NCBI GenBank assembly: GCA_945889625.1
Contig: CAMDCE010000015.1
Location: 1-64,000, forward strand
Length of the DNA: 64,000 nucleotides
Direction of reading: 5' to 3'
DNA from: Asaia bogorensis
GTDB taxonomy: Bacteria > Pseudomonadota > Alphaproteobacteria > Reyranellales > Reyranellaceae
Numbering within the stretch: the first letter of the stretch is position 1; each line of letters starts with the position of its first letter. Shown in pieces: positions 48,660 to 49,907 of the stretch. The position numbers were made by a program, and so were the translations under genes. Below the pieces are notes generated by a model. The model saw only the letters and a list, made by a program, of their open reading frames with translations. It searched no databases and was not told the origin of the DNA.

Positions 48660-48980
48660 ATGCGTGGCATTCATGACATGGGTGGCCTCCAGGCGGGGCC
48701 GGTGGAGCGGGTCGATCACGACTACCAGCTCTGGGAAAAGCGCGTCGATGCACTGATGGTTCTGTTGTCGCGCAAGCGGCGCTTCACCGTCGACGAGTTG
48801 CGCAAGGGTATCGAATCGCTGCCCGGCGACGCCTACGACAACCTCACCTACTACGAACGCTGGATCGGCTCGATCGCATCGGCGCTCGTCCATCGCGGCA
48901 CGATCAGCATCGAGGAGTTGCGTACCAAGCTTGCCGACATCGAACAGCGCCCGGACGGTCCCAAGGCGGGCAAGCCATGA
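48660..48980 (+). CDS. Nitrile hydratase beta subunit, N-terminal half (split; thiocyanate hydrolase beta-like)
   Basis: A 106-residue protein matching only the N-terminal helical half of nitrile hydratase beta. It starts [14 protein letters not shown], the hallmark of that subunit, and has [14 protein letters not shown] and the conserved TYYERWI helix. The C-terminal half is encoded by the next gene, overlapping by 4 bp (ATGA). This two-gene beta layout is seen in thiocyanate hydrolase (scnB/scnA) and in the toyocamycin nitrile hydratase. Small nitrile hydratase activators resemble this half too, but lack the GIHDMGG start. The ATG is fixed by that motif; no ribosome-binding site is present. 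Confidence 0.8.
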
Positions 48981-49264
48981 CCCCGCGTTTCAATGTTGGT
49001 GCACCGGTGAATGTACGGCGCGGCAATCCGCCGGGCCACATCCGGACGCCCTACTACATCCGCGGCAAGTCGGGCGTGGTCGAGCGAATTTGCGGCGAGT
49101 TCAGGAATCCCGAGGAACTGGCCTATGGCCGCACCGGCGAGCCCAAGCAGGTGCTCTACCGCGTGCGTTTCAGCCAGAAGGACATCTGGCCGGGCTATAG
49201 CGGTCCGACCGGCGACACGATTGACGTCGAACTCTACGAGCATTGGCTCGAGCCGCCGCATTGA
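48977..49264 (+). CDS. Nitrile hydratase beta subunit, C-terminal half (split; thiocyanate hydrolase alpha-like)
   Basis: A 95-residue protein equal to the SH3-like C-terminal domain of nitrile hydratase beta: [54 protein letters not shown] and the end [15 protein letters not shown]. In thiocyanate hydrolase this half is the separate alpha subunit. It begins inside the last codons of the previous gene (ATGA), and the metal-binding subunit gene follows after 10 bases. The three together would build one functional heterotrimer unit. Confidence 0.83.
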
Positions 49265-49274
49265 GGACATCGCC

Positions 49275-49907
49275 ATGATGGACAACATCACCCATACCCA
49301 CGACGGCCCAGATCCGCATTCGCCGCGGCCGGATCACGACGATACGTTGACGCATCACAAGATGCTTGAGATCGCCGTACGCGAGCTCCTGATCGAGAAA
49401 GGCATTCTGACGGCCGACGAGGTGCGCGAGGCGGTCGAGCGCATGGACGCGCGCGGCCCCCATCTCGGCGCGAAGGTCGTGGCGCGAGCCTGGGTCGATC
49501 CGGCCTTCAAGGCGCGTCTGTTGAAGGACGGCTCGGCGGGCGCCGAGGAAGCCGGCGTGCAAATGGATCAGCCGACGCGGCTGATCGTCGTGGAGAACAC
49601 TCCGTCGGTGCACAATCTCGTGGTCTGCACGCTCTGCTCCTGCTACCCGCGCATGGTGCTCGGCATTCCGCCCGACTGGTACAAGAGCCGGGCTTATCGC
49701 AGCCGCGCCGTGCGCGAACCGCGCGCCGTGCTTGCCGAGTTCGGCACGCACTTGTCCGAAAGCACGACAGTGCGGGTTCACGATTCGACAGCCGACATGC
49801 GCTACCTCGTGCTGCCGATGCAGCCCAAGGGAACCGACGGCTTCGACGAAGCAAAGCTGGCAGCCCTGGTGACGCGCGATTCCATGATCGGCGTCACGAC
49901 GCTCTGA
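49275..49907 (+). CDS. Nitrile hydratase alpha / thiocyanate hydrolase gamma subunit (metal-binding)
   Basis: A 210-residue catalytic subunit. The metal claw VCTLCSC is at 117-123 (Cys118, Cys121, Ser122, Cys123); Thr after the first Cys is the cobalt-type signature, and the second and third Cys become sulfinate and sulfenate in the active enzyme. Downstream PPDWYKSRAYRSRAVREPRA is typical. The first 30 residues carry seven His (THTHDGPDPHSPRPDHDD, then THH), an unusual His-rich tail that might help load metal. The ATG at 49275 has GAGG 8 bases upstream. It could hydrate a nitrile or hydrolyse thiocyanate; no amidase, activator or transporter gene is beside it. Confidence 0.87.
   Translation: MMDNITHTHDGPDPHSPRPDHDDTLTHHKMLEIAVRELLIEKGILTADEVREAVERMDARGPHLGAKVVARAWVDPAFKARLLKDGSAGAEEAGVQMDQPTRLIVVENTPSVHNLVVCTLCSCYPRMVLGIPPDWYKSRAYRSRAVREPRAVLAEFGTHLSESTTVRVHDSTADMRYLVLPMQPKGTDGFDEAKLAALVTRDSMIGVTTL

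Follow-up and report, generated by a model that had tools for sequence, protein, structure and literature searches.

A three-gene operon of the nitrile hydratase superfamily with a split beta subunit and the active-site arginine of thiocyanate hydrolase

The closest characterized system that we found for the operon described here is ScNHase, the nitrile hydratase from Streptomyces canus CGMCC 13662. According to the available part of its description, ScNHase consists of three subunits of 10.4, 11.4, and 21.3 kDa encoded in the order <anhD><anhE><anhA>, no activator gene was found, and AnhD doubles as a chaperone, doing the work of an activator as AnhD2A (PMC7329996). The same text reports hydration of acetamiprid, thiacloprid, and BN, and hardly any of indole-3-acetonitrile (PMC7329996). 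An excerpt of a further report names His21 of AnhE as important in the S. canus enzyme (PMC13243292). For Microvirga flocculans CGMCC 1.16731, the portion accessible describes a nitrile hydratase encoded on a plasmid, with its alpha gene between two beta genes (PMC11573777). As the order N-half, C-half, alpha (N-C-alpha) and the beta-alpha-beta order are thus both in print, at least in these excerpts, our finding is of a kind already known.

The first-pass annotation of this DNA had pointed to the three-gene sets of thiocyanate hydrolase (SCNase, Scn) and toyocamycin nitrile hydratase (Toy) as precedents. The likeness holds for the three subunits and the split beta subunit, but the closest characterized precedent is ScNHase, as far as the excerpted description goes (PMC7329996). 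In nitrile hydratases, two beta arginines pair with the oxidized cysteines of the metal site, as stated in the available text of PMC7193024, and activators are said to weakly resemble the beta subunit in that of PMC3511329. A 2023 survey, consulted in excerpt, found SCNase homologs enriched in Alphaproteobacteria (PMC10098168) and may include the present split type.

The operon and its three proteins

The window, by which we mean the whole stretch of 64,000 nucleotides analyzed, contains three genes (Table 1) forming a unit of their own, since eno and pyrG, the flanking genes, are both on the opposite strand and no same-strand gene adjoins. We took the names eno, pyrG, secG, and tpiA from sequence recognition. 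The gene eno diverges from the operon with a start at 48569, the start codon used by eno of the relatives, and the convergent pyrG ends at 49911. The first-pass annotation had reported a beta subunit split into two overlapping genes followed by a metal subunit (48660-49907), without an adjacent amidase, transporter, or cobalt activator. These coordinates were exact, the Pfam matches are close to full length, and none of the three kinds of gene adjoins the operon.

Table 1. Positions of the genes, motifs, and predicted elements of the operon in the window
Feature	Position	Strand	Remark
Sigma-70-like promoter (predicted), GTGACG-17-TATACT	48625..48653	+	motif scan
Beta N-half	48660..48980	+	106 aa; equivalent of AnhD/ScnB
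Codon of N-half R48 (= beta-Arg52 of nitrile hydratase)	48801-48803	+	
ATGA shared between the stop of the N-half and the start of the C-half	48977..48980	+	read from letters
Beta C-half	48977..49264	+	95 aa; equivalent of AnhE/ScnA
Codon of C-half R23 (= beta-Arg157 of P. thermophila)	49043-49045	+	
Metal (alpha/gamma) subunit	49275..49907	+	210 aa; starts 10 bases after C-half
CTLCSC cobalt-binding motif (predicted)	49626..49643	+	alpha C118-C123
Codon of alpha Arg126	49650..49652	+	Trp place of conventional nitrile hydratases; gamma-Arg136 place of thiocyanate hydrolase

The predicted promoter is the one sigma-70-like site found between 48450 and 50000, against a mean of 0.2 in shuffled sequences. 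Because its -10 element ends 6 nt before the first ATG of the operon, with TATA(C/G)T at the same distance from the ATG in four relatives, the message may be leaderless. The -4 spacing between the two halves is also the commonest one, occurring in 46 of 90 distinct N-C-alpha operons with mechanically chosen start codons.

The three genes adjoin eno in the window and in four genomes of the same genus group (G036, G041, G049, and G052), likewise in G071 from another genus of the family. Two further genomes (G006 and G012) possess eno and pyrG and lack the operon, G006 having two other genes in between; at pyrG of G010 and G022, no eno was found within the 8 kb examined. The gap between the alpha gene and pyrG is 3 bases in the window, compared with 1.7-1.8 kb in the four genomes of the genus group and 3.9 kb in G071. 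In G049, the interval from the operon to pyrG contains two more genes (L215, 4288-6018), whose products of 254 and 303 residues have signal-peptide-like starts; these genes are missing at 49908-49910 of the window, where the alpha gene abuts pyrG. On the other side, an AraC-type regulator and a small ABM-domain protein (46104-47289) stay beside eno in relatives with the operon (G049, G052) and in one without it (G006).

In Pfam, the first protein matches NHase_beta_N with E 2.4e-22 (model positions 1-106 of 115), the second NHase_beta_C with E 1.5e-22 (9-98 of 98), and the third NHase_alpha with E 1.3e-82 (4-184 of 184). The alpha subunit scores above the NCBIfam cut-off for nitrile hydratase alpha (TIGR01323, 257.0 vs 249.85 bits) and below that for SCNase gamma (TIGR03887, 221.7 vs 291.45 bits), and the two halves, with 71.8 and 70.5 bits, remain below the TIGR03888 cut-off of 152.2 bits. 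Among 33 aligned sequences, that of the window and those of 32 relatives hand-picked from 80 chosen for likeness to its alpha, the equivalents of beta-Arg52, beta-Arg157, and AnhE His21 are invariant, as are CTLCSC and Arg126. The two cysteine-pairing beta arginines thus sit on separate proteins, R48 on the N-half and R23 on the C-half, where H21 occupies the place of AnhE His21. Glu56 of AnhD may correspond to E52 of the N-half.

The single-chain model of the alpha subunit (mean pLDDT 89.3) fits best to the P. putida nitrile hydratase (Z 26.8, 3.2 Å over 187 residues), and the Z for SCNase gamma is 25.4; the predicted structure fits both enzymes. The His-rich N-terminus of the metal subunit, considered unusual in the first-pass annotation, proved to be ordinary. 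The 32-residue tail before the alpha core contains 6 histidines in the window; the averages are 5.8 for the Arg-type (102 sequences) and 6.4 for the Trp/His/Phe-type (71 sequences), and solved SCNase gamma and P. putida alpha are also His-rich there.

Separate beta halves and the arginine of the metal subunit

Arg126 of the alpha subunit, missed in the first-pass annotation, occupies the place of a tryptophan in conventional nitrile hydratases. The corresponding residue of solved SCNase gamma, read from PDB alignments, is Arg136 (CTLCSCYPRPILG). PDB entry 3vyg is the R136W mutant of SCNase by its letters and title, and 3vyh is, by its title, nitrile hydratase from P. thermophila carrying W116R. 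Since others have made these Arg/Trp swaps, the residue has already been taken as a difference between SCNase and nitrile hydratase; a search of the open-licence literature for 3VYG and 3VYH found no paper.

We classed 174 distinct alpha stretches, including that of the window, according to which residue stands third behind the final cysteine of CxLCxC and in which frames the beta halves are read. The Arg-type comprises 102 of them, 97 with both beta halves, which are split in every case (90 in the order N-C-alpha, seven in the order C-alpha-N). A half is missing in the other five; for three of these (L071, L086, and L090), the start coincides with the end of the record or is close to it. Among the remaining two, L058 is an Arg-type alpha alone in 12 kb with no beta half there, and L060 lacks the N-half although the DNA covers its place. 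The Trp/His/Phe-type accounts for 71 stretches, 66 with a fused beta gene, four with N and C in different frames, and one with no beta found. The last stretch, L147, has a fused beta and an alpha without a match to the CxLCxC motif; its order is N-C-alpha and its branch in the tree is long. All four loci whose N and C frames differ are Trp-type (L013, L019, L122, and L150). L019 and L150 look frameshifted, as their N frame continues into the region of C. A weak extra N-like match lies near each of L013 and L122, which may be either frameshifted or cases of a split that arose a second time.

As 80 of the 174 stretches were picked by likeness to the alpha of the window, this sample leans to Arg. 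Of 72 distinct loci obtained with family models, best-scoring places only, 12 are split with Arg, 54 fused without Arg, and none is fused with Arg, the others being the four Trp loci whose N and C frames differ, one fused locus without the motif, and one undetermined. Split beta and Arg coincide almost perfectly. No report of this coincidence was found in the open-licence papers searched, outside of which lie the primary papers on ScNHase (2019), SCNase, and TNHase.

A conventional nitrile hydratase with a beta gene that is decaying, or that was interrupted by a frameshift or an error of sequencing, would fit the single beta gene of conventional enzymes and the meeting of the two halves at a domain border. 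Yet the halves are separate in all 97 distinct Arg-type operons that have both, the window included, and in seven of these they flank the alpha gene. Pairwise Nei-Gojobori comparisons among five genomes (the window, G036, G041, G049, and G052, all of the same genus group) gave dN/dS ranges of 0.04-0.12 (N-half), 0.05-0.14 (C-half), and 0.06-0.12 (alpha), so all three genes are under purifying selection. Conservation of the split together with purifying selection rules out a frameshift or gene decay, a reading that is almost certainly wrong. The first-pass annotation had itself raised a frameshift joining the halves and a reference genome with a fused beta gene; the former is contradicted by the selection on the three genes and by the 97 separate pairs, and as to the latter, no fused beta accompanies any of the 102 Arg-type alphas.

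The split form is recorded in Alpha-, Beta-, and Gammaproteobacteria, in Streptomyces, on a cyanobacterial plasmid, and in metagenome-assembled genomes (MAGs) labeled as other phyla. Within the family of the window, at least 12 of 75 genomes have a copy checked as split, five at 86-100% identity, four at 77-80%, and three at 60-63%, the latter in the order C-alpha-N. Some alpha is found at E 1e-30 in 73 of the 75 genomes, a part of the lower places having been read for the split state. The C-alpha-N order occurs on plasmids of Rhizobium, Microvirga, and Polymorphobacter in addition to these three family genomes. In G057 (C33:55771-57416), several short NHase-alpha-like matches follow in a row, possibly precursors of NHLP-type peptides.

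Maturation and possible substrates

The analysis establishes the genes and their family identity, the conservation of the named residues, the purifying selection, Arg126, and the absence of matches to the known activator family from the genome examined. The operon probably encodes an ScNHase-type (AnhD-AnhE-AnhA) nitrile hydratase with Co(III) and three subunits, self-contained and without need of an activator. The presence of cobalt, the oxidation of cysteines, the assembly, the chaperone role, and the reaction would follow by homology. A short, possibly leaderless message would yield the N-half, the C-half, and the metal subunit by coupled translation. The N-half and the metal subunit would pair as N2A, in which cobalt could enter C118-T-L-C121-S-C123, with C121 presumably becoming a sulfinic and C123 a sulfenic acid. 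The loaded alpha would then swap into an enzyme of composition N2C2A2, in which its oxidized cysteines would be held by Arg48 and Arg23, contributed by the N-half and the C-half, respectively. A cyano compound binding to cobalt would be hydrated to the amide or, in the case of thiocyanate, hydrolyzed.

We searched for an activator with the known accessory family TIGR03889 and with PF21006. The window's own genome (G000, a draft 93.95% complete) has no TIGR03889 match, one alpha, and one N-half match; PF21006 matches only the N-half itself. Across the family, 59 of 75 genomes have a TIGR03889 match, 52 of them over the cut-off. The split alpha is the sole alpha in G000, G049, and G071, all three without TIGR03889, which is also missing from G041 and G072, each with a second alpha. 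This absence is not specific to the split type, because G064 and G070 lack TIGR03889 as well, and their sole alpha, 48-49% identical to that of the window, is hardly of the split type. The absence is consistent with activator-free maturation and is no proof of it. The N-half has a weak TIGR03889 score (18 of 46 bits) and, by analogy with AnhD, is likely also a cobalt- and subunit-swapping chaperone.

A route for cobalt uptake is plausible because, among six genomes with the operon, five have a CbtA match and all six a NicO match, weak and partial in the window's own genome (51 bits). Among six plasmid regions read, out of 178 matched records, five split operons (L156, L158, L159, L160, and L161) lie near cobalt transporters of the HoxN/NixA family or CbtAB, and three of these five near an aquaporin; L158 also has a cytochrome P460 gene nearby, and L157 has neither transporter nor aquaporin. 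These plasmid neighbors, absent from the window, are taken as a hint only.

The operon stands alone between eno and pyrG with no neighbor revealing its substrate, for which the first-pass annotation had named thiocyanate, a cyanogenic nitrile, or a metabolite nitrile. We mechanically chose the longest same-strand frame beside 80 loci, giving downstream frames in 63 and upstream frames in 56, and scanned all of the former and 51 of the latter, leaving out L033, L034, L035, L037, and L038 with frames overlapping eno. No common family emerged among the 63 downstream and 51 upstream frames, and identifying the substrate from neighbors was given up for want of a shared family. EamA (9/63) and a lipid A acyltransferase (7/63) lead downstream, a recurrence taken for lineage synteny, and a phosphatase-like domain (5/51) leads upstream. 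Blast clustering of the neighbors mixed real genes with antisense frames.

Organic nitriles are the likeliest substrates; the compound BN hydrated by ScNHase we take to be benzonitrile. This nitrile hydratase reading is favored by the Pfam and NCBIfam identities, the gene order of ScNHase, the invariant equivalents of Arg52, Arg157, and His21, the absence of TIGR03889, the plausible cobalt uptake, and a Streptomyces plasmid operon that combines the ScNHase order with Arg, whereas Arg126, being the SCNase residue, and the lack of a linked amidase speak against it. The coincidence of Arg with the split keeps thiocyanate a live rival substrate. Arg126 would then bind the thiocyanate anion, and the operon would encode a functional thiocyanate hydrolase with carbonyl sulfide and ammonia as products, a reading that we regard as unlikely. 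It draws on the three subunits and on the arginine at the gamma-Arg136 place, the very residue swapped in 3vyg and 3vyh. An Arg-Glu pair in the helix before the core is shared with SCNase gamma, the fused enzymes having Glu-Ser/Thr; the predicted alpha superimposes on SCNase gamma with 2.2 Å over 187 residues, and the MAG carrying L034, an operon with 88% identity, bears the name SCN18. The alpha subunit nevertheless fails the SCNase gamma model (221.7 vs 291.45 bits), and it is 52-54% identical to three solved nitrile hydratases compared with 46% to SCNase. Moreover, pyrG on the other strand directly follows the operon where SCNase has its activator gene, no thiocyanate-linked gene was noted beside it, cyanate lyase occurs in only one of six genomes with the operon, and the same arginine is found in Streptomyces, in an operon whose genes are ordered like those of an enzyme that hydrates nitriles.

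The phylogeny bears on both sides. The first-pass annotation had proposed a tree of all three subunits; the one built, from 63 alpha sequences with the Arg column kept in and no outgroup, separates the Arg sequences and SCNase from the fused enzymes and the three solved nitrile hydratases with a support of 100/99. SCNase forms a long branch, however, and the AU test rejects neither its joining the fused side (p 0.46) nor the Arg rows standing alone on one side (p 0.443). No true SCNase above the TIGR03887 cut-off was found in sets of 398 and 390 public genomes. Cyanate lyase was dropped as a partner of the operon: the window's own genome has two matches within 4 kb (G000:C8:88603-92439; L209, L210), and five relatives with the operon have none. 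The naming scheme to which SCN18 belongs is that of thiocyanate-fed reactors in the accessible part of PMC8061750, the link to the MAG of L034 being ours.

A nitrile hydratase dedicated to a metabolite within a biosynthetic pathway, comparable to the conversion of toyocamycin to sangivamycin, would agree with the three subunits of ToyJKL and with its alpha maturing alone, as cited in the consulted parts of PMC7329996 and PMC12648386. The operon is, however, alone between eno and pyrG with no deazapurine biosynthetic cluster, and the scanned neighbors in relatives have no common family, so we consider this reading quite improbable. The probable reading remains the ScNHase-type nitrile hydratase.

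Significance and comparison with known systems

The three-subunit form, in print from few enzymes, is widespread here, and one active-site residue marks it and separates thiocyanate hydrolase from nitrile hydratase. Whether Arg or Trp sets the specificity for thiocyanate or nitrile in native enzymes, and whether a free N-half removes the need for an activator, are now directly testable. Self-maturing cobalt enzymes are also of use in biocatalysis. A tentative and rather doubtful proposal is that the split Arg-type is the stem form of the nitrile hydratase superfamily, with SCNase as one specialized branch, and that the two-subunit Trp-type arose once by fusion of beta, replacement of Arg by Trp, and a separate activator derived from a freed copy of the N-half. 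If so, many "nitrile hydratase" operons would in nature act on thiocyanate or on further cyano compounds that are charged or very small.

ScNHase shares with the operon the order N-half, C-half, alpha, the comparable subunit sizes, the AnhE His21 equivalent, and, by its partial description, the lack of an activator gene; its host is a Streptomyces, unlike the Reyranella/Vineibacter-like alphaproteobacterium indicated by the relatives of the window. Membership in the ScNHase type, which is probable, rests on architecture because no ScNHase sequence was found in the collections used. A Streptomyces plasmid operon (L156) has the ScNHase gene order and Arg at the diagnostic place and falls inside the Arg group of the tree.

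The M. flocculans plasmid enzyme, as excerpted, has the same three-subunit organization and differs in having alpha between the beta genes; Microvirga terrae has an operon that looks related, with the same Arg and the order C-alpha-N. ToyJKL, compared by description, likewise has three subunits but is part of a biosynthetic cluster (PMC12648386, in the part available), and its alpha alone is active (as cited in the excerpt of PMC7329996). SCNase from Thiobacillus thioparus (PDB 2dd4) resembles the operon in three subunits derived from a split beta, Arg at gamma-136, and a His-rich N-terminus of the metal subunit. It differs in a gamma identity of 46% with an insertion in SCNase gamma, in longer beta-like subunits (157 and 126 aa), in an SCNase model that the window alpha fails, and in an activator gene after the structural genes (PMC7193024, in excerpt). 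Conventional Co-type nitrile hydratases (P. putida, P. thermophila, Bacillus) share the fold, the cobalt motif, and the beta-Arg52 and beta-Arg157 equivalents, whereas they possess one beta gene, a separate activator, and Trp in place of Arg.
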